From an uncultured Spirochaetota bacterium (GTDB taxonomy: Bacteria; Spirochaetota; Spirochaetia; JAFGXN01): a DNA stretch of 64,000 nt. The position numbers and the translations under genes are program-made. The notes beneath the pieces were generated by a model. That model saw only the letters and a list, made by a program, of their open reading frames with translations, was not told where the DNA came from and searched no databases. This document shows, piece after piece, positions 4,709-28,284 of the stretch (position 1 is the first letter of the stretch; every line of letters begins with the position of its first letter). Where the stretch lies: positions 124,001-188,000 of the forward strand of contig CALXKN010000001.1 of NCBI GenBank assembly GCA_944388995.1, written 5' to 3'.

Positions 4709-4709
4709 G

Positions 4710-8036: not shown

Positions 8037-8050
8037 GCTGGCGGAGGATT

Positions 8051-10245: not shown

Positions 10246-10297
10246 CATTCCCCCCGGGTGGGGCGGTCAGCCGCTTCCCGTCCGGTTACATCGGGCA

Positions 10298-10337
10298 CCC
10301 GAAAACAACGAAGGCCGGAAAGCTCCGGACTTCGGGT
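10298..10337. repeat. Hairpin repeat at left edge of the CARF operon
   Basis: Nested inverted repeat: ACCCGAA/TTCGGGT outside and GAAGG-CCGG/CCGG-A-CTTC inside, loop AAAGCT. The segment 10300-10328 matches 16146-16174 at 27 of 29 positions by eye, so the same hairpin unit bounds both ends of the CARF-RavA-ViaA operon. This left copy has lost the T-run expected of a terminator. Confidence 0.55.
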
Positions 10338-10402
10338 GACAGTCCCGACTGATTTCATTAATTTTCATCAAAAATCGCAAAAATTGTCAACTCCTCCAAA
10401 AT

Positions 10403-10438
10403 TTGTTTTATACAGACAGTATAATATCATGATATAAT
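10403..10438 (+). promoter_or_regulatory. Candidate promoter/operator of the CARF-RavA-ViaA operon
   Basis: Two TATAAT boxes lie at 10420-10425 and 10433-10438, just upstream of the GAGGA ribosome site and ATG at 10457. A perfect 12-bp palindrome, ATATCATGATAT (10424-10435), joins them and could be an operator. No good TTGACA-like -35 sits at normal spacing, which may mean activator dependence or use of the operon's own sigma-like protein. Confidence 0.4.
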
Positions 10439-10456
10439 CACACGAGGAAATATCAA

Positions 10457-11101: not shown

Positions 11102-11103
11102 AT

Positions 11104-12054: not shown

Positions 12055-13820
12055 TGAAAAACTTTTTTAAAAAATCAACTTCCCTCGATGAACAACATGA
12101 GGCAGAGATGAAAACCGGCGAACACAAGATCCCAGCTGTTGCGCCGCAAAAGCCGAAACTTTTTCAAGAACACGACACAAATGAACGCCAAAGCCGCATC
12201 AAAAAACTCCTTGAACTTTTGAATACGGGACTGTATGAAAAGGAGGAAGCGGTTCGGCTCGGACTTTTGGCCGCTGTTTCCGGAGAAAGTATTTTCTTTT
12301 TGGGCGCCCCAGGCAGTGCGAAAAGTATGATTGCCAGAAGAATCGTTCAAGCATTTCAAGCGGACGGAAATAAGGGATTGAAATATTTTGAATATCTGAT
12401 GAACCAGTTTTCTACACCGGAAGATATTTTCGGCAATATTTCTTTAAGGGCTTTAAACGGGGAAGGTGAAAGCGGAAAAGAAGAATATAAAAGAATTACG
12501 GACGGTATGCTTCCACAGGCAGACATTGCCTTTTTAGATGAAATCTGGAAAGCCAGTCCGGCTATACAAAATACTTTACTGACGATTATCAACGAACGGA
12601 AATTTCACAACGGTAATACAGTAGAAAACGTTCCTTTAAAAGCGTTATTTACAGCCTCCAACGAGCTTCCGGCAGAAAATGCCGGGCTGGAGGCTCTGTA
12701 TGACAGATTGATTTTACGGTTATGCGTTAATTACATCGAAAATGAAGACTCTTTTTTTGATATGATAGATGCACCTCATACTGTTGAAATGGGAATTAAA
12801 GAAACAGATAAAAATCTCCTTATTACAGATGAAGAAATGAAAAATTGGAAACAGCAAATCGACAATGTAACACTTTCCGAAGCCGTTAAATCTGTTATTA
12901 CAGCGATTCGAAAGGAATTAACAATAAAAACCGAACAATTTAAATCCGAAGGAAAAGACCCGAAAGAATGGTTCACGGTCAGTGACCGACGATGGAAAAA
13001 AATTGCCCGTATTTTAAAAACATCTGCTTTTTTAAATGACCGTACAGAAGTCGATTTAATGGACCTCCAGTTAATCGAATACTGCATCTGGAATACGGAA
13101 GAACAACAGCAAAAAGTCGGAGAAATTGTTGCAAAGTGTATCAGAGAAAACGGATTGGAATATAATACGTCCGTTGATGATATAAGAGAACAGATAGATA
13201 AGTTCAACGAGGATGTCACCAAAAATTTTTATGACGTGAAAACAATTGAAAAGCCTGTGACTTACAAAATGACAGATGACTCTCTAGCTTATAAAATTGT
13301 GTCTCCCAAACCAATTCAATTATATCAAACCATAACTCCCTATTATCTTGCTCCCAATTATGAACATGGGGTTCATCAAAGAACCGGTGCATATTACGAT
13401 CAGAACACTAAGAAGATTGGCGATTATAATTGTTTTTATTTTAAAGACAACTCATTTAAAATCGAAAATGATACAGTATCTTTTATCGATGGATATAGAG
13501 GTACGTCATACTCATTTAAAATTGAAACTCAAGAAGAGGAAAAACTAGAGAAAAAAAAGTTTGTATTTGAAAATTCCGATTTTTTGCAACTTAGACGGGG
13601 AAAAGCCGATGAAGAGACTTATAATCCCATCCGTAGTGAAATTGAAAGCGAAATAAAGAAAATTGATGACTTTATAACCGAACAAAGTGAACCATACAAG
13701 GCAAACCTTTTTGCCCGTCAAGACTGTTGCAATGTCATTATGGATTCTGTTAAAGCCTCAAAAAAAGAACTGGAAGACACTTTAGTGGAATTAGATAAAG
13801 TAAGGGAACGATATCAGTGA
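12054..13820 (+). CDS. RavA-like MoxR-family AAA+ ATPase
   Basis: A 588-residue ATPase. Walker A G-A-P-G-S-A-K-S is at 84-91 and Walker B I-A-F-L-D-E at 158-163, followed by the RavA-specific I-W-K-A-S-P-A-I-Q-N-T-L-L. Sensor and arginine-finger parts (T-A-S-N-E-L-P, A-L-Y-D-R-L) and the late V-S-D-R-R-W-K-K motif also match RavA. It is about 90 residues longer than E. coli RavA: residues 400-540 are a beta-rich region in the position of the LARA domain, and the end is a coiled coil. RavA works with the VWA protein ViaA as a chaperone-like machine. Here the ViaA-like partner is two genes downstream. Translation is coupled by a TAATG overlap. Confidence 0.9.
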   Translation: MKNFFKKSTSLDEQHEAEMKTGEHKIPAVAPQKPKLFQEHDTNERQSRIKKLLELLNTGLYEKEEAVRLGLLAAVSGESIFFLGAPGSAKSMIARRIVQAFQADGNKGLKYFEYLMNQFSTPEDIFGNISLRALNGEGESGKEEYKRITDGMLPQADIAFLDEIWKASPAIQNTLLTIINERKFHNGNTVENVPLKALFTASNELPAENAGLEALYDRLILRLCVNYIENEDSFFDMIDAPHTVEMGIKETDKNLLITDEEMKNWKQQIDNVTLSEAVKSVITAIRKELTIKTEQFKSEGKDPKEWFTVSDRRWKKIARILKTSAFLNDRTEVDLMDLQLIEYCIWNTEEQQQKVGEIVAKCIRENGLEYNTSVDDIREQIDKFNEDVTKNFYDVKTIEKPVTYKMTDDSLAYKIVSPKPIQLYQTITPYYLAPNYEHGVHQRTGAYYDQNTKKIGDYNCFYFKDNSFKIENDTVSFIDGYRGTSYSFKIETQEEEKLEKKKFVFENSDFLQLRRGKADEETYNPIRSEIESEIKKIDDFITEQSEPYKANLFARQDCCNVIMDSVKASKKELEDTLVELDKVRERYQ

Positions 13821-14110
13821 AGCAGCAAAAAGCAATCGATGCAATTAATGCCCTCGAAGAAAAGTATCCTGAAGGTGTGCCCGATATCGATTCTCTTTCT
13901 CCGGAACAAAAAGCGTGGTTGCAATTACAAATATTGTTACTAACCGACGATGACGGATATAGACGAATCGGTATCAAACTACAACAAATAAGAAATCGTT
14001 TGCTTCATGCGACAGAAGATATTCCAGATAAAGAATTAAAAGAAATTCTTCGGTTTATTTTTAAAAACCTGGATACAATAAAGAAATATCGGGAGACAGA
14101 CGGAATTTAA
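13817..14110 (+). CDS. Small helical protein with an R-N-x3-H (HEPN-like) motif
   Basis: 97 residues, no recognised family. It is all-helical in appearance, with I-R-N-R-L-L-H-A-T-E-D at 58-68. R59-N60-x3-H64 matches the catalytic R-x4-H signature of HEPN RNases. The same element (M-R-N-K-T-G-H-Q-T-E-D) occurs near the N-terminus of the next protein with matching flanks, suggesting a shared domain. GTG at 13817 overlaps the RavA-like stop codon. It could be a minimal HEPN toxin-like effector or an adaptor; the motif alone does not prove nuclease activity. Confidence 0.65.
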   Translation: MKQQKAIDAINALEEKYPEGVPDIDSLSPEQKAWLQLQILLLTDDDGYRRIGIKLQQIRNRLLHATEDIPDKELKEILRFIFKNLDTIKKYRETDGI

Positions 14111-14111
14111 A

Positions 14112-16130
14112 ATGAAGAGAGGATATAAAAAATCAAGAATACATACAAAAAAAGCTCTTAAAATTATGGGAGAAATAAAAGAAAAATTTCATTCAAAGAT
14201 TCAGCCTTCCGAAATGTCCGAGGAAGATCGATCCTTGTTTCAAATAAGACTGATGCAATTCCGGGAAAATTTGAGAAATATATATTTTAAAAATGGGCGT
14301 CCCGAATGGTGGGAAGCGATAAGAATAATGCGAAATAAAACCGGACATCAGACAGAAGATTTTAATGATGAACAATTTAAAGGCATATTTGATAATTTTA
14401 TTTCAAAAATTCCTACAATGGAAAAAGATTTAAAGACAAACATCAGACAATTTAAACAGCCTTCACGTAAAAAAAGACAATTTGAAACATTCGGTTCTCA
14501 GGCAATCGGAACGGAAGAAGAGAGAAAACAGCTTGTTGACGCCATTGAGGATCAGTTTTCTCCCACAGACCCCACAGATATAACTATCGAATTCCCCTCG
14601 AACCTTTTTTCAAAAGAAACGGAAAAAACTGTTCAACAAATTCTGAATCACGGTTCGGTGGGACAGGTTGTAAAAACTCATTCCGGTCTTTCGGAAAATA
14701 TTCAAACGGATATTTTACAGTGGATACAGGATGTTAACAAAAAATTGGAGTCGGAAAATCCTTTCTTTGAGGAAGAACTTTTTATCGAAAAACAAAAAAC
14801 ATTATCCGCAGACGAATTGGCAGCGGATCTATCCGGAGAAAAATCAAAAATCAGGTGGCATTACAGCAGGTTACCTTCCGTCAGTCCTTCCAAACGGGGA
14901 AATATCCGGGAAAGTACATTGGATTTTGATTTTTATCAAAAGCAGTTTCGTACACTGAAAGAAAATGACGATAAGAAAGATTTAACAGTCCGAACAGCCT
15001 CCGAACAGGCGGAAATTCTTCGCAGAAATTTTATTGCCGATATGGAAAAAAATCTGATTGAACGGAAAACCCGATGGGAACAGGAAAAAATCGACGAGTT
15101 CAGGAAGCAGTTTCTCGAAGAATTGTACGAAAAAACCGAACGATTTATGAGACTCGAAAAATTGCTGGCTCCGTTAATAAACCATTTCGGACGGTTGTGG
15201 GATTTGTCTTCCCAAACTTTTAACGATTGCGGATTTGAAATACTGGAAACTTTTTCCCGCCTGTTGGAACAGGATGAATCATTGCAGGAACTGGCAGCCA
15301 TGCTCGGTAAACAGTCAAGAGCACAAAGTACCTTTGAAAAAGAATTACGTGATAAGACGGTTATCAAAACGGAGTGGCATTCCCAACCGGCATACAGAGG
15401 TGAAATTAAGGGTATCAAATATTCAAATGATCTTTCCGCTGTTTTACCGTCGGAACTTGCTTTATTAAGAAATCCTGCGACAAAGAAATTATTTCAGTTG
15501 AAATTTGCACAAAAACAGTTGCTATCCTACGATTACAGGAACCGGTATCAAACGAAAAAAACGGAAACAGAAAAAGAGGAAGTTGCCGTCGAAAATAAAG
15601 AACCGAAAGGACCGATTATTGTTTGTGTCGACACCAGCGGATCAATGCACGGAACTCCGGAAAATATCGCTAAAACGATTACTTTTGCTTTGGCAAAAAT
15701 GGCAAATGAAGAAGAGAGAAAATGTTATCTGATTTCTTTTTCAACGGAAATCGAAACATTGGATATGAGCGGATTTTCAAAAGGTGATTCTATTGCCAAA
15801 CTGATCGAATTTTTAAGGAAATCTTTTTACGGAGGAACGGATGCGACACCGGCTTTAAACCATTCTGTTGAAATGCTCCAGAAAGAAGGCTACAGAAATG
15901 CTGATGTTTTAATGATATCCGATTTTGTTATGGGTGATCTATCGGAAGAATTGCGGAATGCTATCGAACAGGAAAAAGAAAAAAACACCTGTTTTTACAG
16001 TCTTGTTATCGGTACAACCGGAAATTCGAAAACAATAGAATGCTTTAACCACAATTGGGTTTATGATACGGCATCGCCGAATGCTTCGAGACATTTGGCA
16101 GAACAGCTGCATGAATTGAAAATAAGGTAA
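14112..16130 (+). CDS. ViaA-like VWA-domain protein with N-terminal HEPN-like segment
   Basis: A 672-residue protein. Residues 500-672 form a VWA domain with a complete MIDAS: D-T-S-G-S at 507-511, G-G-T-D at about 574-577 and I-S-D-F at about 603. The surrounding text (G-P-I-I-V-C-V-D-T-S-G-S-M, R-K-C-Y-L-I-S-F-S-T-E-I) matches ViaA closely. The middle is helical and charged. Residues 40-105 carry R74-N75-x3-H79 and resemble the small upstream protein. ViaA is the partner of the RavA ATPase. It is about 190 residues longer than E. coli ViaA (483 residues). A strong terminator follows 25 nt after the stop. Confidence 0.88.
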   Translation: MKRGYKKSRIHTKKALKIMGEIKEKFHSKIQPSEMSEEDRSLFQIRLMQFRENLRNIYFKNGRPEWWEAIRIMRNKTGHQTEDFNDEQFKGIFDNFISKIPTMEKDLKTNIRQFKQPSRKKRQFETFGSQAIGTEEERKQLVDAIEDQFSPTDPTDITIEFPSNLFSKETEKTVQQILNHGSVGQVVKTHSGLSENIQTDILQWIQDVNKKLESENPFFEEELFIEKQKTLSADELAADLSGEKSKIRWHYSRLPSVSPSKRGNIRESTLDFDFYQKQFRTLKENDDKKDLTVRTASEQAEILRRNFIADMEKNLIERKTRWEQEKIDEFRKQFLEELYEKTERFMRLEKLLAPLINHFGRLWDLSSQTFNDCGFEILETFSRLLEQDESLQELAAMLGKQSRAQSTFEKELRDKTVIKTEWHSQPAYRGEIKGIKYSNDLSAVLPSELALLRNPATKKLFQLKFAQKQLLSYDYRNRYQTKKTETEKEEVAVENKEPKGPIIVCVDTSGSMHGTPENIAKTITFALAKMANEEERKCYLISFSTEIETLDMSGFSKGDSIAKLIEFLRKSFYGGTDATPALNHSVEMLQKEGYRNADVLMISDFVMGDLSEELRNAIEQEKEKNTCFYSLVIGTTGNSKTIECFNHNWVYDTASPNASRHLAEQLHELKIR

Positions 16131-16155
16131 GCATTACTATTAATTCAAAAACAAC

Positions 16156-16179
16156 AAAGGCCGGAAAGCTCCGGCCTTT
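16156..16179. terminator. Bidirectional Rho-independent terminator after the ViaA-like gene
   Basis: Perfect 9-bp stem AAAGGCCGG/CCGGCCTTT with loop AAAGCT, followed by T-rich sequence on the plus strand and A-rich sequence on the other side. It separates the CARF operon from the convergent mcrBC genes and is a near copy of the hairpin at 10300-10328. Confidence 0.8.
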
Positions 16180-16201
16180 ATTCATAATAAAATATCACTG
16201 T

Positions 16202-17656
16202 TTATGAATCACTCCCGTTCAAAACCCGAACATCGGTTGCCCTGCCGTTTCTCTCCCGAGGATTGATTCCGTTGGGATCGGGTTTCTTTACCGACGGTAA
16301 ATCAATACGCATTTTGTAGAAATTGATAAATCCTTTTACTGGTTTTTCTTCCATATCTTTTAGACTGTTGATGGGGGAAACATTTTCGTTATCGGAAACA
16401 TTATCGTTGTCTTTCAAGTCTGCTTCGGTTTCACTTCCGGCAGGATAAACGATAATACATTTTACATTGGTGTTGTCATCTTCTATTCCCATGGTTCTAA
16501 GGATTTTTTTATCCCTGGCATAACCGCAAATCTCTCTGATATCCGGTAAAATCCCGGATTGGGAGCCGGCATACCGGGGTTTATATTTGGCATCCAGAAT
16601 CTGCTTTTCTTCTTTTAAGACAAAATCGACAGCTGTTTTGCATTTCCCGGAGCCGTACCCTTCCACCTGAAAAAGCACCTGATTTTTGTACTTCTCCGAC
16701 AGACGACGATACACATACAATTCGTAAAGCCGGGGCATATCAATCCAAAACGGAACTGTATTAACACCCTGTTTTTGAGAATTCTGATAAGTATAATCAT
16801 ACTGCCTCAAAACCATTTTGGCTACGGAAACGGCTTCTTTATATGCCGGGTACAATTTATTCGCCGACGTAATTCTGACTTTCCCCGGATTGACTTCGTC
16901 GGAAACGGAAAGAAGCAGCTGCTTTAACTGATTGATTTTGCCCCGTACCTCTCCCGTCGTTTCTGCCTGTCCCTCTTTTTTCAGACTCGTTATACGGTTC
17001 AGCATCGATTCCGAATAGAATAATGCTTTTTTTAACAACCGGTTTTCGGGAATATCAACGGTATATTCATTGTAACCGCAGTAAAGTCGGTCTTCCCGTT
17101 TATTAAAAACATTGCTTTTCAGATGCTTTTGAAAAAGAATCCGACCCTTTGCTTTCCCTTTCAGATTTTCTTCACGCCGCACATAACCTCTTTTTAATCC
17201 GTGATGCTGTACCCGATCCAACAGGGAAATGAAATGAAAAATCAAAAGCGGCGTCAGACAGCGGGTAACTTCCGATTCATCGGCAAGCGGTATCTGCAGT
17301 TCGTTAAAGCGAATGCCGTAACATTTTGAGAAATAGAGAGCCTCGTTTTCCGAACCGACCTGTAAAGCCTGCCAAAACAACTGTACCATATCGACCCCGG
17401 AAATTTTAGGGCTGACGACAACGGCAGATTTTTCTTTCTCCAACCAGTCAACACCCACATAATAATGAGCTTTTAACTGTTTATTTCCGTAAGTTACCCC
17501 CAAACAGGAAGGAGTCTTCATAAACAATTCCGAATCATTCACAAAGTGTTGATTCCCGGCTAAAATGTCAGCGAGATCGGAATCATCGTCAACGGAAAAT
17601 TCTCTCTCTGATTTCGAATGTTCCGTCATTTCATACAGTGTGACAGAATTATTCAT
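16202..17656 (-). CDS. mcrC: McrC-type restriction subunit (PD-(D/E)xK nuclease)
   Basis: A 484-residue protein with the McrC layout: an N-terminal beta-rich domain (residues about 40-130), a helical middle with P-E-N-R-L-L-K-K-A, and a C-terminal nuclease core V-D-F-V-L-K-E-E-K-Q-I-L-D-A-K-Y-K, where the Asp-x-Lys of PD-(D/E)xK is visible. The last 100 residues are low-complexity and acidic, beyond the usual McrC end. Its start overlaps the mcrB end by 8 nt. McrC is recruited by the McrB GTPase ring to cut DNA with modified cytosines (family knowledge). Confidence 0.87.
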   Translation of the reverse strand: MNNSVTLYEMTEHSKSEREFSVDDDSDLADILAGNQHFVNDSELFMKTPSCLGVTYGNKQLKAHYYVGVDWLEKEKSAVVVSPKISGVDMVQLFWQALQVGSENEALYFSKCYGIRFNELQIPLADESEVTRCLTPLLIFHFISLLDRVQHHGLKRGYVRREENLKGKAKGRILFQKHLKSNVFNKREDRLYCGYNEYTVDIPENRLLKKALFYSESMLNRITSLKKEGQAETTGEVRGKINQLKQLLLSVSDEVNPGKVRITSANKLYPAYKEAVSVAKMVLRQYDYTYQNSQKQGVNTVPFWIDMPRLYELYVYRRLSEKYKNQVLFQVEGYGSGKCKTAVDFVLKEEKQILDAKYKPRYAGSQSGILPDIREICGYARDKKILRTMGIEDDNTNVKCIIVYPAGSETEADLKDNDNVSDNENVSPINSLKDMEEKPVKGFINFYKMRIDLPSVKKPDPNGINPRERNGRATDVRVLNGSDS

Positions 17657-18959
17657 TTTCTTCTTTTTTGTGCTTGGAGATAAACTCGTCCATATCTTCT
17701 GTCGGAACAGGCTGATTGATAATTCCGTCGTTATGATATTCTTTCAGCAGAGGCAAAATTTCGTATTGCCATCTGAGTCGCAAAGCATCATCATCCTTTG
17801 CCATAAAGTAACTGTGTCCGACCATCAGGTCTTCAATATTCATGTCCGAAGCACAGGATTTCAAGTAATTTTCTACGGCTTCAAATAATTCGATGGCTTC
17901 AGGAAGTGTCAAAATCGTTTTGTCGGATTTCAGAGTGACAAAAACGAAACGTCTCCTGACAGCATAGTCGATAGAGCCCACACTTCTGTCGGTGGTATTC
18001 ATTGTTCCGATAATGTACAAATTGTCCGGAACGGTAAATTCCTCTTTCGAATAAGGCAGTAAAACAGACAATCCGTTATTATACCCCTCTTCCGAAATAG
18101 ACTGTCCATTCTCGGATGAATCACGTTTATCGGCTTCCAGAAGGGTAATCAACTCTCCGAAAATTTTGGAAACGTTACCGCGATTGATTTCATCGATAAT
18201 TAAAACATAATTGTTAGTCGGATCCTCTTTGGCTTTCTGCGCCGTCAATTTGAAAATACCGTTTTCGATTTTATAGGATATATTACCGTTTTCGTCGGTT
18301 TGGGGTTTAATTCCTTCAATAAAATCTTCGTAGTCCATGGATTGGTGAAAAGTAACAAAGCCTATGCGACCCTGTGTTATTTTGCCTTCTGTCGAATCGA
18401 TTTTAAGGAGCTCCTTTCGATATTCATCCATCAGCTCTTCTCGATCTTTGGTTGTATCTGTCCCCAACAATGCCAACGCTAATTCGGCCGTTTTATAAGT
18501 TTTCCCCGTACCGGGAGCACCCTGGAGGATAAGATTTTTGCGGGTTTTGAGTAAGTTGATATATTTATTAAAGTTTTCCATAAACAATTTCTCCGAAAAA
18601 ATACGTGATAATTTATCAATTATATCCTGTTTGTGTATTTGACAAATCCCTTTTTGCAATTCATATTTAAAGCGTTCTGATTCCGAGAGTTCATAAAAAT
18701 TCGCCGGTGCATAATAGTTTCCATCATAATCGATCCGGTAATATAAAAAATTCTGTTTTAAATCCGGGTTTGTGTTACAGGCTTTCCTTTCTCCCGTGAT
18801 GACGGCAATCGCCCATACCCATTCCCCCTTACAAATTGCGACATAATCGCCTACTCTCATATCCCGATTCCAACACAATACAATCTGTTTTTCCTTTATG
18901 AAATCGTAAAAATCAGGCCTCCCTTTCCCCCAATTACATCCTAATTTCCAATAATTCAT
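17649..18959 (-). CDS. mcrB: McrB-type AAA+ GTPase with N-terminal EVE/PUA-like reader domain
   Basis: A 436-residue protein. Residues 142-420 are the McrB GTPase: Walker A G-A-P-G-T-G-K-T (147-154), Walker B L-I-I-D-E-I-N-R-G and the McrB hallmark M-N-T-T-D-R-S. The first 100 residues (N-Y-W-K-L-G, then M-R-V-G-D-Y-V-A-I-C) resemble the EVE/PUA-like fold used to read modified bases instead of the classic McrB DNA-binding domain. An AGAGGAG ribosome site precedes ATG at 18959, and about 200 bp of AT-rich sequence upstream holds no gene. It is probably a type IV system against phages with modified DNA; specificity is unknown. Confidence 0.85.
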   Translation of the reverse strand: MNYWKLGCNWGKGRPDFYDFIKEKQIVLCWNRDMRVGDYVAICKGEWVWAIAVITGERKACNTNPDLKQNFLYYRIDYDGNYYAPANFYELSESERFKYELQKGICQIHKQDIIDKLSRIFSEKLFMENFNKYINLLKTRKNLILQGAPGTGKTYKTAELALALLGTDTTKDREELMDEYRKELLKIDSTEGKITQGRIGFVTFHQSMDYEDFIEGIKPQTDENGNISYKIENGIFKLTAQKAKEDPTNNYVLIIDEINRGNVSKIFGELITLLEADKRDSSENGQSISEEGYNNGLSVLLPYSKEEFTVPDNLYIIGTMNTTDRSVGSIDYAVRRRFVFVTLKSDKTILTLPEAIELFEAVENYLKSCASDMNIEDLMVGHSYFMAKDDDALRLRWQYEILPLLKEYHNDGIINQPVPTEDMDEFISKHKKEENE

Positions 18960-19161
18960 ACTCGCTCCTCTTTGTGTGTTATATCGTAATATAAAAAACT
19001 ATGATTCTCAAGCACAAAATTTATTTTTCTATCATTCTATCTAAATGAAAAATTACTTTAAAAGATCAGATGCACATATAATTTAAATATTTTCTGTGTT
19101 ACACAAATATCAAAGCAAAGCATAAGCTGGCTGTTTATAATACAAAAAATACAAGACCATC

Positions 19162-20445
19162 TTATAATCCTGTTGAATTAATATTACTTAGATTCTGCAA
19201 GGGAATATTATTCATATATTCTTGTATTGATTTTGGTTCAAAGTTCTTATTCCCATATAATTCATATAATTTCTCGACGGATTCTTTATCACATGAAACA
19301 GGAATCACATATGCATCGAGTCCGACAAGATAAGATAACCTTGTGATTCCATCTATAAAACCGACACCCCTATTATCATTATAAGAAATTTTACTTATTG
19401 GCACTGGATTCATCTTTCCTTTTTCAAAACCATCCAAGCACGAGAGAAATTTAATACGCATCCATTCGGGCTCATTTTCAGGATGCAAAAAACAGTCAAA
19501 AGAATCGAGTTGACTCATAAAATCAGAGGAGCTCTTTATCTTAGCTACATCCAGAACAATTATGAATGTATCTGTAACAAAGTTTCCAGACATATACACG
19601 ACACCCTTTTTCAACGTAGCAATTTCAAATAAAAGAAATCGAGTGCCGTAAATATTTTTTACAGAGAATACTTTCAAAAATTCGCACTTACTGTTTATTT
19701 TTATACAAGATTTTTTAATTAAAATAGGTTTATCCGCCTGCACTTTACCACAAAGAAGTTTCCCATTTCTTTTTTTATTTCGTTTAACTCCATCATTTCC
19801 CCACGTTCCCCATTGTTTGAAGAAAAAGGCTACTTCCGATTTGACAGATTGATTTTGAATCGACAGCACCCATTCTTCTTTCATAGGTCGCGCATTGTGT
19901 CCACTTTCTCCTCCAACAATAACCCAATCTATATTTGTCAAATCTATTTCTTCTAAATCTTCCAAAAGTGGTTCGCAAGATAAAAACCTGATTGATGATT
20001 TTAAATTTCTTAAAATATCAATTCTTGATTTTGCCATTTTATTTTCAACAGTAACCCCGAGCCATACATTTTGGGGAATCGAATGATTTGAAAAATACTC
20101 GGCCATTCTTTCTGCACGTTTTGTTAAGAGTTGATAATGATTATGTTTGGTTTTCTTTATAGTTTCCATCACTCTATCGATAAAAGAAAATTGAACTTCT
20201 TCGTGAAACAAATCGCCCATTGAACATACAAATACATTGTAATGACCTTTCCAATATAGCGGCTCTTCCAAACAATCCTCATGTTGTGTAACAGCAAATT
20301 CTCTATAATATTTTTTTATTCCCATTGCATGCAATCGCTTCGCCATCATTTCAGCATAACAATTAAGACATCCGCTTGAATATTTTGTACATCCTGTTAC
20401 AGGATTCCATGTTTTTTCTGTCCATTCTATTTTGCTCTGATTCAT
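19162..20445 (-). CDS. DUF5131 (phage Gp37/Gp68, three-Cys-motif) protein with ParB-like C-terminal extension
   Basis: A 427-residue protein. Residues 1-237 are DUF5131, with I-E-W-T-E-K-T-W-N-P-V-T-G-C and the cluster C19-x6-C26-x2-C29, reminiscent of a radical-SAM iron-sulfur site, then L-L-T-K-R-A-E-R and G-G-E-S-G. Residues about 340-390 (N-P-V-P-I-S-K-I, F-I-D-G-I-T-R-L-S-Y-L-V-G-L, Y-V-I-P-V) resemble a ParB/sulfiredoxin-type domain, an unusual addition. It starts 3 nt after the partner gene tcmP. Base composition is much more AT-rich than the core genes, pointing to transfer. Biochemical activity is unknown. Confidence 0.8.
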   Translation of the reverse strand: MNQSKIEWTEKTWNPVTGCTKYSSGCLNCYAEMMAKRLHAMGIKKYYREFAVTQHEDCLEEPLYWKGHYNVFVCSMGDLFHEEVQFSFIDRVMETIKKTKHNHYQLLTKRAERMAEYFSNHSIPQNVWLGVTVENKMAKSRIDILRNLKSSIRFLSCEPLLEDLEEIDLTNIDWVIVGGESGHNARPMKEEWVLSIQNQSVKSEVAFFFKQWGTWGNDGVKRNKKRNGKLLCGKVQADKPILIKKSCIKINSKCEFLKVFSVKNIYGTRFLLFEIATLKKGVVYMSGNFVTDTFIIVLDVAKIKSSSDFMSQLDSFDCFLHPENEPEWMRIKFLSCLDGFEKGKMNPVPISKISYNDNRGVGFIDGITRLSYLVGLDAYVIPVSCDKESVEKLYELYGNKNFEPKSIQEYMNNIPLQNLSNINSTGL

Positions 20446-20448
20446 CCA

Positions 20449-21576
20449 TCATCCCTTATTAATAATTTGATACGATAATAATTTGTTATGTTTGTATATT
20501 TGATTATAATTTACAAGCGGTGATTTCCCCTCATAATCAATTCGCTTATTTTCCCTTAGTTTTTTTATAACTTCTACTGCATGATTGGGAATATGACCAC
20601 AAGAAAGCGTGTATTCATAAACTGATTTATTATTTTTTAATTCTCCTTTAAGAATTTTCGTTTCCAAATCCATTTGAAATTTTTGTATTTTTGTATATTC
20701 TATATTTCCAAATAAGTCCAACTGCATTCCTTTTATCGTGTCATCATCTATATCGAAATTAGCTGCCCCATTAATATTATTTTTTTTCCACGATATCTCC
20801 AAAAATTTATCTACTGCCAATATATGACTCGCGCCAAAAATAATTCCATAGATATTGCTGTTTTTTTTAATTGAAAAAGGATATAGCCGCACGGAACTGT
20901 TTTTCGGTATTTCTTTTCTAAGTTCTTCAATAACAATTTCATGAATGTATTTATAGGGTTTTTCTTTTATTCTATTTTTTGACACAGATAAAGCTGTCTG
21001 AAATTCCGGACGATCGTTAAATCTATTAAAATAGGATGACGAAACAAAATATAAAAAATCAACTTGTTTACAAGCTGTCAATGGAATAAAATATTTCTTT
21101 CCCAGAAATCTAACTCCATTCTGATCAAGTAATACCAATGAAGGATTTTTTTCTAATTTTTTTATGTATTTAGGAAAAATTTCGTCAAAATCTTCATTCG
21201 AAAATTTAATTTCCAATTTTTTCTCTTTTCTCAATTTTTGCAAAGATTTAGAAGTCGCTATATATTCCTGACAGATAGTCATTAACTGATCATATTTCCG
21301 AGAATCCTTTTCATTTAAAAAAACTTGTATATTTTTATTCTCACTTATAATATTCTCTGTATACAAACTAATTTGACTTAAAATTCTTAAGGGACTACCT
21401 TCTATCCCTGATAAATCTTTTCCTGTCCCTGCAAAAAAATCAAATATACATAAAATAGGACTCCATCTCGACATTACGAAAACAGGAATCCATGCCTGTA
21501 TATATTTTTCAAAAATATCAAGTTTTGTTATTGTTTTTTCATCAAATGGTTCTTTATGTAAATCTTTTGATGGCAT
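20449..21576 (-). CDS. Three-Cys-motif partner protein TcmP
   Basis: A 375-residue protein recognised as TcmP by its opening (K-L-D-I-F-E-K-Y-I-Q-A-W), the motif F-D-F-F-A-G-T-G (resembling SAM-methyltransferase motif I), F-L-N-E-K-D and V-L-L-D-Q-N-G-V. The C-terminal 80 residues look like a small helical DNA-binding region. TcmP is almost always encoded next to a three-Cys-motif (DUF5131) protein, as here. Function is undescribed; association with phage and defence loci suggests nucleic-acid modification (inference). The gene is very AT-rich. Confidence 0.82.
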   Translation of the reverse strand: MPSKDLHKEPFDEKTITKLDIFEKYIQAWIPVFVMSRWSPILCIFDFFAGTGKDLSGIEGSPLRILSQISLYTENIISENKNIQVFLNEKDSRKYDQLMTICQEYIATSKSLQKLRKEKKLEIKFSNEDFDEIFPKYIKKLEKNPSLVLLDQNGVRFLGKKYFIPLTACKQVDFLYFVSSSYFNRFNDRPEFQTALSVSKNRIKEKPYKYIHEIVIEELRKEIPKNSSVRLYPFSIKKNSNIYGIIFGASHILAVDKFLEISWKKNNINGAANFDIDDDTIKGMQLDLFGNIEYTKIQKFQMDLETKILKGELKNNKSVYEYTLSCGHIPNHAVEVIKKLRENKRIDYEGKSPLVNYNQIYKHNKLLSYQIINKG

Positions 21577-21615
21577 CTTCTTGAGCCTCGCCTTTTATTA
21601 AATTTAATACATAAT

Positions 21616-22341
21616 TTAGTACAAATAATACCTAATCGAGGCTTCGGCGATTTCTTTCATTTTTTCAAACATTTCCGGAACCGTCCATCGCTCTTCTCTG
21701 AAAAACATTGAAACAGGAGAATAGTAATTAACATCGGAATTCCCGTCTCGTTTAAAAACATAAATTTGATTTAAATTATAAAACTCATTCAGTACGATAA
21801 TTTTGGAACGCACCGTCAATGTTTCGGGAGAATCGACAGCAAAATCACAACCCCAACCGAAACAGATAAATGGAGTAATTTTCTCATAATTCATCATTGC
21901 TTTGATACCGGTCAGATTTTTCCCCAATCGTTCGATAGCGTTTCCGGTTGCCTGCTTAGGTTTACCCTCATTAATACGTTCTTTATTGGTTCCCTGTCGC
22001 TTAATTTCCGCAATGACAAGCGGTGACTTTTCATTTGTCTTCTTATTCACTAAATACAAAACACCGCCGTCGGGAATGATTTTTCGGTCTATACAATCAT
22101 AACAAAATTCTCTTCGTATATTTTTTCTTTTTATAAAATCAATCATATATTTGATTTCAATTTCGGAAGCAAATTCCAAATCCCAATCGGAATCAAAATA
22201 AGATTTAAAATCCTTTTTTTCTTTAAGATATTGTTTAACCAAATCCATTGCCTGATAAACTTCTTTATCATCAATCTTTGACTTCGTATTTTTGGGCTTG
22301 TGTTGTTCCGACCGGCCTCTTAAACTGTCGTGCTGACTCAT
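21616..22341 (-). CDS. EcoRI/MunI-like type II restriction endonuclease
   Basis: A 241-residue nuclease of the EcoRI family. The active site is P90-D91 ... E112-x-K114 (V-I-A-E-I-K), with spacing nearly identical to EcoRI (D91, E111, K113). The recognition loop G-N-A-I-E-R (133-138) corresponds to the EcoRI/MunI loop that reads the central AATT, so the target probably contains AATT, as in GAATTC or CAATTG (inference). The C-terminus is shorter than in EcoRI (277 residues). It lies 9 nt after the methylase gene, so protection is made first. The gene is AT-rich. Confidence 0.87.
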   Translation of the reverse strand: MSQHDSLRGRSEQHKPKNTKSKIDDKEVYQAMDLVKQYLKEKKDFKSYFDSDWDLEFASEIEIKYMIDFIKRKNIRREFCYDCIDRKIIPDGGVLYLVNKKTNEKSPLVIAEIKRQGTNKERINEGKPKQATGNAIERLGKNLTGIKAMMNYEKITPFICFGWGCDFAVDSPETLTVRSKIIVLNEFYNLNQIYVFKRDGNSDVNYYSPVSMFFREERWTVPEMFEKMKEIAEASIRYYLY

Positions 22342-22350
22342 AGCATTCTC

Positions 22351-23466
22351 CTATTTTTCCAAAACAAACAGATACTCGGATGTATGAATATTTCTTTCTC
22401 TTAAATTACGACTTCCGCGAAATGTATTATAAACCATTTCAACTGTTTTCACATGCCCGTATTTTGCAAGCATTCGAACCATTTCATCAAACGAAATAAA
22501 TCCTTCCGAATTATAAGAAACAATAATGAATTTAGAATCCAAATCGGAAATAATTTCTTCCATTGAATTGAGAGCCGAATACGGTTTATTAAAAACCGAC
22601 CTGTTCCAATCCTGTGTAATACCGCTCACCTTGCTTATATCCACATCCAATTTATTCTTCAGAATAAGATTCAGCATGAAATAATTGGAACCGTACGGAT
22701 GTTGATTATACGGCGGATCTAAATAAACAATATCCATATTTTTAAGTTTACCGGAAAGGCTGACGGTATCTTCCCGATAAATCATAACCTCGGATTCGAA
22801 ACGACTGAAAACGGGTTCTTTCAATTCTATTGCCCCCAATATTCTTTTCAGGGCATTTTTGCCGCTCGCTCCAAAACATCCGATGCCGGTATGTTTATCT
22901 TTATAAAATCCTTTAAAAACACCGCTCGTATTCACATGAATTGAAGCTTCCGTAATCAACGGAGCCAGAAAAAATCGTTTAAGCTCCTCTTCCGGCACGA
23001 GTTTATCAATCAAATTTCGATAAGTATCAATCAGAACGGCATTATTATGCGTGTAAAAAACACGTTCTCCGGGCAAAATATGACCATCATCTTTCGGTGC
23101 GTAATGCTCGGTAATTATACCGGGAAGTTTTTCTTTTTCGCACGAGGCTATGATCTCGCTTCTTAAGCTGCTACATTGTTCGCTCGGGTATTCACTGTAA
23201 TTAGCCAGATAACAACTATTGATCACAAAAGAATAGATCTCAATATCGTTTACAATTAAACATTCGGAATAGCGCTTCAGCATTCGCGACACAATTCCCG
23301 ATCCCGCAAACAAATCGGCACAAATCAGTCTGTCTCTCCCCAACTTATTCCGGATTGCTATAACTTCCTGTTCGATTGATCCGATAAGACTTCGCTTGTT
23401 TCCCAAATAGGTAATAATCTGTGTTGTAAGGTAATCATTATTTTCCTGCATTTCCGTAATCGACAT
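22351..23466 (-). CDS. D12-class N6-adenine DNA methyltransferase (modification partner of the EcoRI-like nuclease)
   Basis: A 371-residue methyltransferase. Motif X-like T-Y-L-G-N-K-R, motif I A-D-L-F-A-G-S-G and catalytic motif IV Y-L-D-P-P-Y-N-Q-H-P-Y-G appear in alpha-class (Dam/D12) order. ATG at 23466 is used; ATG at 23451 is an alternative. It is the first gene of the restriction-modification unit. A closely related second copy (about three-quarters identical by eye) lies at 28285-29391 and is more GC-rich. Pairing of an EcoRI-fold nuclease with a D12 methylase differs from EcoRI itself, whose methylase is of another class. Confidence 0.88.
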   Translation of the reverse strand: MSITEMQENNDYLTTQIITYLGNKRSLIGSIEQEVIAIRNKLGRDRLICADLFAGSGIVSRMLKRYSECLIVNDIEIYSFVINSCYLANYSEYPSEQCSSLRSEIIASCEKEKLPGIITEHYAPKDDGHILPGERVFYTHNNAVLIDTYRNLIDKLVPEEELKRFFLAPLITEASIHVNTSGVFKGFYKDKHTGIGCFGASGKNALKRILGAIELKEPVFSRFESEVMIYREDTVSLSGKLKNMDIVYLDPPYNQHPYGSNYFMLNLILKNKLDVDISKVSGITQDWNRSVFNKPYSALNSMEEIISDLDSKFIIVSYNSEGFISFDEMVRMLAKYGHVKTVEMVYNTFRGSRNLRERNIHTSEYLFVLEK

Positions 23467-23774
23467 CGGTTTACCTGAACTCGTTTATACGGCAATATTA
23501 TATCATAATCGGAGAGAGGTATAAAGAAAATAAAGTAAAATCCTTCTAATATATTAGAAATTGATTTTAATCTTATTTTAAATGATAAATATGAAAAGCT
23601 CTGCAAAATTTCTTATACCACACAACCTTTTCTTTTCAAATAAAAAAAAGTCATTCTCTGCAAACAAGGCAATAACCGGCTGCTCTCGCAACAGAACCCC
23701 GATGCTCGATTGACAAATCAGGAAAGCAGGTTGTAAAATAGAATGTATTTTTATTCATACAAAAAGGAGATTTT
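23467..23774. other. Gene-free AT-rich spacer
   Basis: About 308 bp with no credible gene. On the minus strand TATAAT at 23497-23502 with a weak TTTATA at 23520-23525 probably drives the methylase. The right end holds the plus-strand promoter of the secreted gene at 23775. The middle is AT-rich with no inverted repeat that I can see. Confidence 0.5.
23710..23739 (+). promoter_or_regulatory. Promoter of the interrupted secreted gene
   Basis: Perfect TTGACA at 23710-23715, 18-bp spacer and TAAAAT at 23734-23739, followed by an AAAGGAG ribosome site before ATG at 23775. Confidence 0.65.
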
Positions 23775-24386
23775 ATGAAAAAACTGAGTTTTCTGATTTC
23801 TGTTTTACTCTTTTCCGCTGCATCCGCTTTTGCCGATGTGTATACCGTCTGTTCCGGGAAAGCACAAGTCGCCCGTGATTCCGGAAAGTACTTTTCGGAT
23901 CAGGATATTACCATAAAATATGACGATGAAAAAAAGATCTACTATTTGAACACGGAAGTATTTATCAGTAATATCTTTGTTCTTCTTTCCGAAAATGATC
24001 TGGAAAAAATCAGATACGCACTTACCAAATATAAGGAATGGGTGAAAATAGCCAAAGAGCACAATGTCGAGATGAACAAAGAAATTCCCGACTCTTCAAT
24101 CGATACAAAAGTATTATGAGAGTACGGAGAGGATGAATGGCATACTGCTTTCGGTTTTAACCTGACACTGAAAGCGGTTTCTCTAAATTTACAGCAGCAT
24201 TATTTTGTGATTTCATCCAATAAAGTCAGTTCCTTTTTAAATGAATATATTACCGTTAAACTCGATCCGCTCTATTTCAATGAAGTCAATACCGATGCTC
24301 TGTTAGACGCTCTTCAAAAGGAAAAAATCGAATCCGTCAAGGAAGAATACAACAAGAAAAAGGCGGCACAGGATTTATTTCAATAA
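23775..24386 (+). pseudogene. Secreted hypothetical protein interrupted by an in-frame TGA
   Basis: The first part encodes 114 residues with a typical signal peptide (K-K-L-S-F-L-I-S-V-L-L-F-S-A-A-S-A-F-A). After TGA at 24117-24119 the same frame stays open for 88 more codons (E-Y-G-E-D-E-W-H-T-A-F-G-F... to K-K-A-A-Q-D-L-F-Q) and ends in TAA at 24384-24386. The continuation has normal codon use and is followed by a strong terminator, so the ancestral product was probably about 203 residues with Trp (TGG) at position 115. It may be a nonsense pseudogene; readthrough cannot be excluded. Family not recognised. Confidence 0.7.
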
Positions 24387-24445
24387 TCCGATAAAACAAT
24401 CCGGGAATATTTTTAATCCCGGCATTTGCCCCCGTTTTCCGCAAC

Positions 24446-24477
24446 AAAAAAGGCAGCCCGTGCAGGCTGCCTTTTTT
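24446..24477. terminator. Bidirectional terminator
   Basis: Perfect 13-bp stem AAAAAAGGCAGCC/GGCTGCCTTTTTT with loop CGTGCA. It can end the plus-strand secreted gene and the minus-strand fic remnant. Confidence 0.85.
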
Positions 24478-24721
24478 GCCTTTACCGCGGTACGTTACGG
24501 CCGTTTGCATTTCCCAACCTCTCTTCCGCAAAAACAGAACTTCTCCCGATTTTCCCGTATTTTGCACCTAAAAACTCTGAGAGATTCTCCGAAAACTCTG
24601 AGAGTTTTTGAAAAAACATAGGACGTTTTCGGGCAGATAAAAAAGATTTAAAAAACAAAAAAGGCAGTCTGTACGCCTCTGCCCCTGTGTGCCGTCAACG
24701 CAATGCGCTGCGGCCGGCCGT

Positions 24722-25297
24722 TTACCGGCGGCTTTCTTCCGCCTGCCAGTAGCCGTTTTTGTCGGCACCGACCCGGCGCAGAAGGCCGGCGGTCTGTAAC
24801 TTTTTCATCTGACGGATGACGGTGCTGACGGAAAGGCCGGTTTGCTGCGCCAGTTCGCTTTGCGTGATAAAGGGATTGTCTTTGATGCGGTTCAGAATGG
24901 CTTGCTGACCGGCGGTTGATTTTACACTGTCATTTACACTGTCATTTACACTGTCATTTACACTGTCATTTACACTGTCATTTTGGCGGTTGCCGTAAGC
25001 GGGGGAAGCGTCTTCGACCGAACGGGGATTCTCTCTGTAAGCAATGTGCAGATAACGGTTTTTCAGTTCGTGACGGGCACCGAACAGCAGATTCTCGAAA
25101 AAGTGCTCCAAAAAGAGCGGCGTTTCCCGGATTCCTTTTTTGAGATCGGTGTAATTGGATCTGACCAGCGCATTGCGAAAATAGCGGCTGTTGTTCTCGA
25201 ACAGCTCATCGGAAACCGCGAAACCGAGCGTCCGCAGATATTTGACGGTAAAGACCGCCGTGGTGCGGGTATTGCCCTCGATCCGGTATACCCCAAA
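24722..25297 (-). pseudogene. Truncated fic remnant (copy A)
   Basis: The frame reads R-F-G-V-Y-R-I-E-G-N-T-R-T-T-A-V-F... through the last part of the Fic fold, an N-D-S-V repeat and the C-terminal winged helix, ending in E-E-S-R-R. Compared with the intact copy at 27031-28194, everything between the promoter-proximal G-V-Y and the Glu after the catalytic H-P-F-A is missing, by a precise in-frame deletion of about 200 codons. The Fic His is lost and no ATG remains; only a TTG at 25111 could start the last 129 residues. An expressed fragment would be a DNA-binding domain without enzyme. Confidence 0.75.
24924..24983. repeat. 12-bp tandem repeat, 5 units (N-D-S-V coding)
   Basis: Five perfect copies of ACACTGTCATTT. 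On the minus strand each unit encodes Asn-Asp-Ser-Val, so copy-number change keeps the reading frame. The intact fic copy has three units. Confidence 0.95.
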
Positions 25298-25298
25298 C

Positions 25299-25372
25299 CG
25301 CGGTTTTCCGCAACAAAAAAGGCAGCCCGTGCGGGCTGCCCCTGTGTGCCGTCAACGCGGTGCGCTGCGGCC
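25299..25372. repeat. Short third copy of the hairpin/GCCGTCAACGC element
   Basis: Contains TTTTCCGCAAC, the A6-GGCAGCCC/GGGCTGCC hairpin and the CTGTGTGCCGTCAACGCGG element found at the ends of copies A and B. It joins the fic remnant to the end of the LRR lipoprotein gene. Confidence 0.7.
25315..25340 (-). terminator. Terminator of the LRR lipoprotein gene
   Basis: Stem GGCAGCCC/GGGCTGCC (25321-25328, 25333-25340) with a T-run on the minus strand (A6 at 25315-25320), located 35 bp after the lipoprotein stop. Confidence 0.75.
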
Positions 25373-25374
25373 GG

Positions 25375-26628
25375 TTACGGTGTTTCCCCGGAGACAGTAC
25401 GGATTTCTTTCCAGGAAACGGACTGCCATGTGTTGCCGTCGCTGATTTCGCTGCTGTTGCTTTCGTCCAGATACAGCACCGTATCGGCCGGTTGAAAACT
25501 TCCGGCAGCCGCAAACGAACCGGTAACGGTTATTTTCCCGGGATAAGTTAATTTTAAAACCGGAATCACGGCATCGGTGAACGCATTGGCGTTAACGGTT
25601 GTTGCCGACGGAAAAGAAGCCTCTTCCAAGACCGTCAGCGAAACAAAAGCGGAATCCCCGACAGCCGTCAGGTTCGGACAGGAAAGACGGTTTAATACAC
25701 GATTGGAAAAAATATTGTAAGAAAGATCCAACGAGGAGTTCAAACCCGAAAGCGTTCCGGTTTCCAACGGCAAATCCGAACCCTCATCGAGAGCAAAACA
25801 GTCGTTGCCGATGAATGCGGCCGATTCCAGATTAATGCGCTCCAGTGCCGTACAGTTGCGGAAGGCGTCGGCAATCAGTTTAAACGTACCCTTTTCCGGC
25901 AAAATCACTTCTTTTAAAGCCGTACAGCCGCGGAAGGCGGCATTTCCGATTTCCCGAGTCAGAGCCGGAAGGGAAACGGATGTCAGCGAACGGCAGTTTT
26001 CAAATACGGAACCGCCGAGCAAATCGACTGCCGGAAGAGAAACCGATTTCAGATTGGAGCAGCCTTTAAAGGCACCCTCTTCGATTTCAGTGACTTTCGG
26101 CAAAGAGACTTCAACCAGAGAAACGGCTTCGGCAAACTGACCGGTGCGTACAATTTGCGAATCGGCCAGAACCAGCTTAACCCGAATCCGGGGATTTTTC
26201 AGTGCCTCGCCGAGACTCTTCGGAAAAATGCCGGTTCCGGTCACTGTGACGGTATAAGGTTCCTCATACGGAGAAGAAGGAGACGGAGCCGCTGCCTTTA
26301 AAACCTCTGCCGTTTCTTCGGCCGTACCGCTAAACGCCGGTACAGAGACAGTACAGGGAGTAATTTGAAAAACGAAGACCCTGGGAAAAACATCGGCGGT
26401 TCCCAACCGCTTTGCGGTTACCTTTCCGCTACTGTCGACCGAAACGGTTTCGGCATCGGTCGATCTCCATTCCGCTTCGACAACATCTTTTCCCATCATT
26501 CCTTTAACAACCGCTGTTTCTCCGATCTCCAATGTCAGTTTTTCGGGAACGACATTACACACGGGATCCTCCTGAATGCACCCGAACAGCAGAAAAAACG
26601 ATAAAATCAAAAAAATGTATTTCTTCAT
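25375..26628 (-). CDS. Surface lipoprotein with Ig-like (BIG2) domain and BspA-type leucine-rich repeats
   Basis: A 417-residue protein. Start ATG at 26628 gives a lipoprotein signal (K-K-Y-I-F-L-I-L-S-F-F-L-L-F-G-C, Cys17). Residues about 20-85 form a bacterial Ig-like domain (V-V-P-E-K-L-T-L-E-I-G-E-T...G-K-V-T-A-K-R-L-G-T-A). Residues about 150-390 hold LRR_5/BspA repeats (I-E-E-G-A-F-K-G-C-S-N-L-K-S-V-S-L-P and similar). Such proteins are surface adhesins in host-associated Treponema and Bacteroidetes. It sits between the two fic copies and is more GC-rich than the restriction genes. Ligand unknown. Confidence 0.85.
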   Translation of the reverse strand: MKKYIFLILSFFLLFGCIQEDPVCNVVPEKLTLEIGETAVVKGMMGKDVVEAEWRSTDAETVSVDSSGKVTAKRLGTADVFPRVFVFQITPCTVSVPAFSGTAEETAEVLKAAAPSPSSPYEEPYTVTVTGTGIFPKSLGEALKNPRIRVKLVLADSQIVRTGQFAEAVSLVEVSLPKVTEIEEGAFKGCSNLKSVSLPAVDLLGGSVFENCRSLTSVSLPALTREIGNAAFRGCTALKEVILPEKGTFKLIADAFRNCTALERINLESAAFIGNDCFALDEGSDLPLETGTLSGLNSSLDLSYNIFSNRVLNRLSCPNLTAVGDSAFVSLTVLEEASFPSATTVNANAFTDAVIPVLKLTYPGKITVTGSFAAAGSFQPADTVLYLDESNSSEISDGNTWQSVSWKEIRTVSGETP

Positions 26629-26711
26629 AAGCAACTTCTCACCCCCAGTTATTATAAATCCGAAAATTCCGGTTGTCAACAGAAACTTTCCAAACCGCCG
26701 TTTTCCGCAAC

Positions 26712-26740
26712 AAAAAAGGCAGCCCGCACGGGCTGCCTTT
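26712..26740 (-). terminator. Terminator downstream of intact fic
   Basis: Stem GGCAGCCC/GGGCTGCC (26718-26725, 26730-26737) flanked by A6 on the plus strand, giving a T-run on the minus strand. It lies about 290 bp after the fic stop, between fic and the LRR lipoprotein start. Confidence 0.7.
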
Positions 26741-27030
26741 CTGTGCCGTCAACGCGGTGCGCTGCGGCCGTTTGCTTTTTCCAACCTCTCTTCCGCAAAA
26801 GCAGAACTTCTCCCGATTTTTCCCGTATTTTATACCCGAAAACTCTCGGGGATTCCCCAGAAACTCTGAGAGATTTTTTAAAAACACAGTGCATTTTTCC
26901 GAAAACTCTGAGAGTTTTTTTAAAAACGTAGGACGTTTTCGGGCAGATAAAAAGATTTAAAAAACAAAAAAGGCAGCCTGTACGCCTCTGCCCCTGTGTG
27001 CCGTCAACGCGGTGCGCTGCGGCCGGCCGT

Positions 27031-28194
27031 TTACCGGCGGCTTTCTTCCGCCTGCCAGTAGCCGTTTTTGTCGGCACCGATCCGGCGCAGAAGGCCGGCG
27101 GCCTGCAACTTTTTCATGTGGCGGATGACGGTGCTGACGGAAAGGCCGGTTTGCTGCGCCAGTTCGCTTTGCGTGATAAAGGGATTGTCTTTGATGCGGT
27201 TCAGAATGGCTTGCTGACCGGCGGTTGATTTTACACTGTCATTTACACTGTCATTTACACTGTCATTTGCGCTGTTTTTTTTGCTTTGGGGAAATCGGTG
27301 CGAATTTCCGTAGTGAACGGAGAGATCCTCGACTGATTGCGGATTTTTTTTGTAATCGATGTGAAGGTACCGGTTTTTCAGTTCGTGATGCCGGTCAAAC
27401 AACAGATTATCGAAAAAATTCTCCAAAAAAACGGGAGTTTCCCGAATCCCCTTATTGAGATTGGTGTAATTGGCTCTGACTAAAGCATTGCGGAAATAAT
27501 AACTGTTTTTTTCAAACGGTCCGTTATGAACCTCAAATCCGAGCGTCCGTAAATACTTGACGGTGAAAACCGCCGTGGTGCGGGTATTGCCTTCCGCAAA
27601 CGGATGAATTTGCCAAAGCCGGGAAACAAAAAACGCAATGTGACTGACCGTTTCCCGAGGAGTCAGATCTTTGTAACTGAACCGACGTTCCTGTTCAAAA
27701 TCGTAATCCAATGCCGACCGCAATTCGAAAGCGGCTCCGTATAAAACCGTATCGCCTCGCAGAACCCACTCTTTTTTGGTGATATCGTAATCTCTCAGCA
27801 CACCGGAAAACCGATAAATCCCGTCAAATAACTCTTTGTGTATTGCAATCAGATAAGAAGGCGAAAACCGAAATGATTTTTCGCTCAGAATTCGGGCAAT
27901 CCTTGCAGAAACTTTGTCGGCTTCTTCGGTCCGTTCTTCACCGTTCAAATCAGATCTTGTTTCGTAATAGTTGTTAACAAGGCGATTGGCTTCATCTATC
28001 GAAATTTCGCCTTCAATATTTCGCCGAGCCGTTTCATACAGATAAGCCGATGGTTCCAGACCGTCCACTTGCTGCAGACCGATAGCTGTTGCCCATGCCT
28101 TTCCCTTTTCTTTCTTCGAAGGTTCCGACTGACGAATATATTCATCAAAATTAAAGCCTGGGGTAAATCCCGAATCTCTAAATTCTTCCGTCAT
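27031..28194 (-). CDS. fic: Fic-family protein with C-terminal winged helix (putative AMP transferase)
   Basis: A 387-residue protein. The catalytic loop H197-P-F-A-E-G-N-T-R205 has the HPFx(D/E)GN-x-R signature of Fic enzymes, which transfer AMP or similar groups to protein hydroxyls. The N-terminal E-T-A-R-R-N-I-E-G-E resembles an inhibitory helix but lacks the Ser/Thr of the usual motif. Residues about 309-325 are N-D-S-V repeats, then a winged helix (I-T-Q-S-E-L-A-Q-Q-T-G-L-S-V-S-T-V) binds DNA, perhaps autoregulating. ATG at 28194 was chosen because a good promoter ends 8 nt upstream; a longer start at 28254 would lie upstream of that promoter. It may act in defence, but the target is unknown. 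Confidence 0.85.
   Translation of the reverse strand: MTEEFRDSGFTPGFNFDEYIRQSEPSKKEKGKAWATAIGLQQVDGLEPSAYLYETARRNIEGEISIDEANRLVNNYYETRSDLNGEERTEEADKVSARIARILSEKSFRFSPSYLIAIHKELFDGIYRFSGVLRDYDITKKEWVLRGDTVLYGAAFELRSALDYDFEQERRFSYKDLTPRETVSHIAFFVSRLWQIHPFAEGNTRTTAVFTVKYLRTLGFEVHNGPFEKNSYYFRNALVRANYTNLNKGIRETPVFLENFFDNLLFDRHHELKNRYLHIDYKKNPQSVEDLSVHYGNSHRFPQSKKNSANDSVNDSVNDSVKSTAGQQAILNRIKDNPFITQSELAQQTGLSVSTVIRHMKKLQAAGLLRRIGADKNGYWQAEESRR
27233..27268. repeat. 12-bp tandem repeat, 3 units, in intact fic
   Basis: Three perfect ACACTGTCATTT units in frame, in the linker between the Fic fold and winged helix, against five in the remnant. Confidence 0.95.
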
Positions 28195-28202
28195 CTCTTT
28201 CC

Positions 28203-28231
28203 AGTATACCCCAAAATTCGTTTTTCCGCAA
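28203..28231 (-). promoter_or_regulatory. Promoter of fic
   Basis: Minus strand TTGCGG (28226-28231), 17-bp spacer, TATACT (28203-28208), then 8 nt to the ATG. The same TTGCGGAAAA segment recurs in all copies of the repeat element. Confidence 0.55.
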
Positions 28232-28284
28232 CACGCACTTCCTTTCAGCCGCAATGCACAGCGGACTTTTATAGTCGGAAACCG

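Follow-up and report, generated by a model that had tools for sequence, protein, structure and literature searches.

The interrupted gene is located on the forward strand of the window, a stretch of 64,000 nucleotides from an uncultured Spirochaetota bacterium, where sequence and translation place an in-frame TGA (24117–24119) at codon 115 of an open reading frame spanning 23775–24119 (Table 1). Beyond the TGA the frame stays open for 88 sense codons (24120–24383) and is closed by TAA at 24384–24386, yielding a joined frame of 203 codons with codon 115 counted. The first-pass annotation had described a gene that runs 88 codons in frame past a TGA and is followed by a strong terminator, and both statements are borne out, the former by sequence and translation and the latter by a hairpin that begins 58 nt past the TAA. 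The N-terminus, MKKLSFLISVLLFSAASAFAD, resembles a signal peptide as judged by eye. The promoter-like site upstream is weak, four such sites being found in the region against 2.8 expected, and the only in-frame start listed within the second half is a GTG at 24207, which opens 59 codons without an evident ribosome site. The consensus scan listed two other sites but not this hairpin, which belongs to a repeat (AAAAAAGGCAGCC..) of family D6 present in three copies within 2.3 kb (24429–24474, 25298–25343 and 26695–26740); thus, the terminator is repeat-borne.

Table 1. Coordinates of the interrupted gene and of the features around it, in window positions
Feature	Position	Strand	Remarks
Stretch holding the gene, not colinear with sister genome G001	10335–27016		
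Promoter-like site (TTGACA, 18 nt, TAAAAT)	23710–23739	+	11/12 consensus matches; weak
AAGGAG ribosome-binding-like site, 5' of ATG 23775	23764–23769	+	seen in sequence
Codons 1–114, the first half of the conserved protein, beginning with a signal-peptide-like segment	23775–24116	+	105.9 bits, homologue profile
In-frame TGA, codon 115 (intact homologues: W, F, Y, M or K)	24117–24119	+	
88-codon continuation and TAA: second half of the same protein	24120–24386	+	59.8 bits, E 1.3e-17
Strong terminator-like hairpin with T run	24445–24478	+	-22.3 kcal/mol, z -4.85

The stretch that holds the gene is bordered by segments that are colinear with G001, 268–10334 on the left (98.7% identity) and 27017–55395 on the right (95.8%). 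Only three matches lie between these flanks, all short or paralogous (16148–16305, 22355–23422 at 70.8%, and 24708–25279), and the G001 counterpart, a 12.3-kb segment (G001:C2:158767–171102), contains ORFs that look different, as listed for all but its last 2.1 kb. A left-flank gene (14112–16130), taken as a synteny anchor, has no match in G001 or G002. The cargo of the window stretch comprises McrBC-like genes (16202–18959), a DUF5131/TcmP pair (19162–21576), an EcoRI-like endonuclease (21616–22341) and a D12 methyltransferase (22351–23466). With a GC content of 36.8%, the gene resembles the part to its left (36.5% for 10335–16147 and 35.6% for 16306–23466), unlike the part to its right (50.3% for 24387–27016) and the colinear flanks (50.5% and 48.6%), and thus forms the right-hand edge of the AT-rich part. 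We also note that the two sister species carry different cargo at this hotspot between colinear flanks, with a radical-SAM-like protein, a UvrA-like ATPase and an AAA protein recognizable by eye in G001, and that the DUF5131 and three-Cys-motif partner TcmP pair matches the PADLOC candidate models PDC-M30A and PDC-M30B.

To the right of the gene, the 3' end of a fic gene is duplicated. A headless copy on the reverse strand (24722–25279) is 81% identical over 188 residues to the gene itself (27031–28254, also reverse), which encodes a Fic-HTH protein, and therefore constitutes another broken copy near the interrupted gene. The duplication spans 24640–25279 and 26949–27594 of the window, and a BspA-like leucine-rich-repeat gene (25375–26679, reverse strand) sits between the two copies. 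Within fic, a 12-nt tandem repeat whose units encode NDSV (24921–24983 and 27230–27270) varies in copy number, with three units in the gene, five in the fragment and four in the G001 gene.

An open frame past a stop codon is only moderate evidence for coding and on its own proves little, because an in-frame extension of at least 88 codons is present in 7 of the 45 long window ORFs (at least 200 aa); the probability of 88 open codons is 0.011 by the base composition of the window and 0.0016 by the local composition. The codon usage log-odds per codon is 0.156 after the stop versus 0.157 before it, while base shuffles of the second part give a mean of -0.18 (sd 0.08) and its other five frames range from -0.175 to 0.075, with 4 to 7 stops each. 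When compared with a profile of 11 intact homologues from which the window protein was left out, the 88-residue part alone scores 59.8 bits and the first part 105.9 bits, with the best unrelated window frame at 4.9 bits (856 targets). The joined query, carrying X at the stop, reaches 168.7 bits over profile positions 1–199, in a match that takes in both halves and is interrupted by the stop. The gene-like codon usage after the stop, together with a profile match at E 1.3e-17, places the continuation beyond chance, and on these two lines of sequence evidence we conclude that it is coding sequence, namely the second half of the same protein.

The genus, family and order, with two genomes besides that of the window, yielded no relative, and there was no match in G001 or G002. 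The class was represented by 394 genomes drawn from a larger group, which were searched with the joined protein carrying X and also with a profile including the window row; the same window-including profile was used to search the family of genome G318 (274 genomes). In G318 the joined query carrying X has a match that extends over residues 2–202 (E 5.6e-28) and contains no stop. Eleven full-length homologues were kept (L003, L004, L005, L006, L036 and L056–L061). Left out were 10 of the 17 rows from the G318-family search, all of them partial matches at E 9.6e-4 or weaker, as well as L037 from the class profile search and the joined-protein rows weaker than L006. Two of the eleven, L006 and L036, are weak members, scoring 34.0+8.6 and 16.9+5.3 bits when left out. 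The closest homologue found is about 36% identical to the window protein, too distant to date the stop or to gauge the selection that followed.

Neither the joined protein nor one of its two pieces matched a Pfam family at E 10, and the joined protein matched none in NCBIfam or PADLOC at 0.001; with the 11 homologues as queries, PHROGs and Pfam at 0.1 gave weak matches only, from one member each. A sequence search of the PDB gave nothing better than E 0.068, phage records gave four matches at E 3 that were all unrelated, and plasmid records gave none. The window protein gave no confirmed match in viral contigs or in genome_contigs, and a search of genome_contigs with L003 recovered only the record of L003 itself. 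As judged from these sequence comparisons, the family is a small spirochaetal one of about 200 residues that is scattered through the spirochaetes and has no model in the libraries searched. The gene, of about 203 codons, is read as an accessory one whose product is probably secreted to the periplasm or the surface.

None of the 11 homologues has a stop at the position aligned with codon 115 and all of them read on, so that homologues ending naturally at the first stop, which the first-pass annotation had named as the finding that would count against an interrupted gene, were not seen. The aligned residue is Trp in four of the eleven (L003, L004, L056 and L059), including the two most similar to the window protein, and this is the residue that the earlier annotation had proposed to look for. 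Its further proposal, that TGG became TGA at codon 115, is supported by these four without being proven, but the other seven carry Phe (L006, L036 and L060), Lys (L058 and L061), Tyr (L005) or Met (L057). Without the weak members L006 and L036 the column (n=9) holds four Trp, two Lys and one each of Phe, Tyr and Met. Both L056 and L003, the nearest to the window protein by identity and by tree path, have a Trp codon there, in a tree that is poorly resolved and in which the window row falls in no starred set. Because the column is variable, with F, Y, M and K besides W, an ancestral Trp is only a likelihood.

An AlphaFold2 model of L003, computed with the 11 homologues, has a mean pLDDT of 86.9 and a pTM of 0.80. 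It shows a first unit of four strands (22–34, 39–50, 55–61 and 66–71) followed by a long helix (73–96), and a second unit of five strands (101–103, 109–117, 120–137, 140–147 and 164–166) and two helices (168–177 and 180–200). Within the long helix, K85, W89 and A93 (L003 numbering) are invariant in all 11 homologues and are present in the window protein. The stop corresponds to L003 residue 115, inside strand 109–117, with three strands and two helices beyond, and the 114-residue product would therefore lack nearly all of the second unit. A Foldseek search with the L003 model gave no PDB hit that reached E 0.001. VIA-align gave matches to PUR-alpha (Z 10.9, rmsd 4.0, 133 aligned), to the Whirly protein WHY3 (Z 9.0, rmsd 5.8, 136 aligned) and to OspE (Z 8.9, rmsd 3.1, 114 aligned); at 6–15% identity, these values exceed only slightly the Z of 7 to 8 stated as typical in the note to the tool. 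The alignments to PUR-alpha repeat I-II, Whirly and Borrelia OspE/Erp cover most of the L003 model, and OspE/Erp are spirochaetal surface proteins, as the family described here is spirochaetal. We regard these model-based matches as leads to a possible fold only, from which no function follows.

Taken with the genomic setting, the interrupted frame is best explained by a nonsense mutation in an accessory gene, and we consider an ordinary broken gene of this kind likely. Seen directly are the TGA itself, a second half that is open and has homology, the intact homologues elsewhere and the lack of a match in two sister genomes. We suggest that an accessory gene of about 203 codons, residing in a stretch that varies between strains and at the margin of an AT-rich defence-gene cluster, was interrupted by one nonsense substitution at codon 115, where the ancestral codon most likely specified Trp. 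Translation would now end in the middle of a conserved domain, where RF2 would be expected to terminate efficiently, and the resulting 114-residue product would be non-functional. The event may be of fairly recent date, as the second half shows no other lesion, neither a further stop nor a visible frameshift. This is a weak clock, since at P 0.05 the second half could have taken about 50 neutral substitutions (19% of sites) without gaining a new stop. The first-pass annotation had listed a recent inactivation next to the island as a separate alternative; it is the same event as the nonsense mutation, and the placement holds in that the gene lies inside the non-colinear stretch, at the right-hand edge of its AT-rich part.

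The sequence after the stop gives a hint of relaxed selection, which we do not claim because the window protein lies within the range of the homologues. Identity drops across the stop from 40% to 30% relative to L003 and from 38% to 28% relative to L056, with the homologues among themselves averaging 25% before and 23% after it. The share of profile bits that falls after the stop is 0.41 for the window protein and higher in 9 of the 11 homologues, although the window value is within their range of 0.20–0.66. In favour of a broken gene, two of the four second-half positions that hardly vary in the family, F133 and L143 (L003 numbering), are changed in the window protein as judged by eye. Against it, codon usage and the fit to the profile remain good past the stop, as would be expected of a leaky functional gene and not of an old pseudogene.

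The TGA might instead stem from an error in the assembly or consensus, or from a minor allele in a mixed population, which we regard as unlikely. A single codon alone is off the family pattern, the genome is in 27 contigs (completeness 98.11), and the searches yielded no other record of the gene for comparison, all of which would be compatible with an error. On the other hand, 35 of 50 G001 ORFs (60 kb compared) match the window at 80% identity or more, and only one of these alignments contains a stop, about three codons before its end; with this one near-terminal stop among 35 ORFs, there is no sign of frequent errors in the stretch. In the reverse comparison, 33 of 57 window ORFs match G001 at 80% or more and again one alignment, that of fic, contains a stop, which probably lies before the true start because the fic ORF listed for G001 starts later than the TTG-started fic of the window. 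These comparisons also give no sign of a general tolerance of UGA in the window stretch.

Leaky or programmed readthrough, in which UGA would sometimes be misread as Trp to give a low level of full-length protein, is compatible with the open, gene-like and homologous second half, and yet we judge it quite unlikely. Relative to shuffles, the RNA past the stop has a somewhat stronger fold (z -2.21 over 81 nt, and -2.57 over a 111-nt segment that starts before the stop), but its first 60 nt are barely better (z -0.93), 4% of 200 sense-strand control coding segments of 81 nt reach the z of -2.21 obtained for that length, and among the 8 of 11 homologues compared at the RNA level, the stop-free L058 reaches z -3.0 at the same place. 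The 15 Rfam matches around the stop are all below their gathering scores. The stop stands in the context TGA-G and not in the leakier context TGA-C. RF2 scores over its cut-off in the window genome, and the stop is kept in none of the 11 homologues, all of which are distant. The one tRNA-Trp examined (L048:1500–1573, window genome C2) has the anticodon CCA and an anticodon stem of 5 bp, so the 4-bp variant is rejected for this tRNA; it has A at position 24 by our manual numbering, and in PMC13092985 a G24A change is named as easing UGA readthrough. PMC7918605 likewise discusses UGA as leaky, with Trp inserted. From the A24 of the tRNA-Trp and the hairpin after the stop, one could draw the more specific and decidedly improbable picture of UGA as a leaky brake, whereby few ribosomes would insert Trp, the secreted protein would be kept low and tunable, and the second half would remain under selection. 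The programmed readthrough offered as an alternative by the first-pass annotation has gained no firm support.

Very improbable, too, is a functional role for the 114-residue product as a short variant in which the first strands and helix work alone. The cut falls after the first unit of the model (residues 22–96 of L003), a half-domain that could in principle fold, but none of the 11 homologues is that short, and the second half shows a coding signal and homology and therefore was probably selected until recently. The chance that UGA encodes selenocysteine, or is reassigned to Trp genome-wide, is negligible despite the open frame after it: in a genome of 98.11 completeness the best selB match scores 195.9 bits against a cut-off of 242.25 and the best tRNA-Sec match 42.5 against 47 (over the cut-off in 2 and 5, respectively, of 14 control genomes), the best eight of 21 tRNA-Sec-like places are ordinary tRNAs, with the tRNA-Trp described above among them, and Cys occupies the column in none of the 11 homologues, so that selenocysteine is rejected within the reach of these searches, as is reassignment, with RF2 present and TGA as the terminal stop of 18 of the 45 long window ORFs.

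If the gene was broken by a nonsense mutation, as we favour, the correct annotation is one interrupted gene of 203 codons and not a short complete one, and the broken gene would be a sign of turnover in the variable stretch. A further outcome of its analysis is a small family of spirochaetal proteins with no convincing match in the present Pfam, NCBIfam and PADLOC scans and with a confidently predicted structure. Were readthrough shown, the gene would offer a natural case of a secreted bacterial protein that makes use of the leakiness of UGA. The system treated in PMC13092985, where a tRNA-Trp with a 4-bp anticodon stem reads through UGA, is similar in that UGA stands here where the nearest relatives have Trp, but differs in that the tRNA-Trp examined here has a 5-bp stem. 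Belinky et al. 2021 (PMC7918605) describe widespread in-frame stops in the genes of bacteria, most of them short-lived and with an excess in the mobilome category, which fits a gene in a variable stretch. The present case differs from those described there in that the stop occurs in one genome only, and resembles them in having one in-frame stop in an otherwise conserved ORF.
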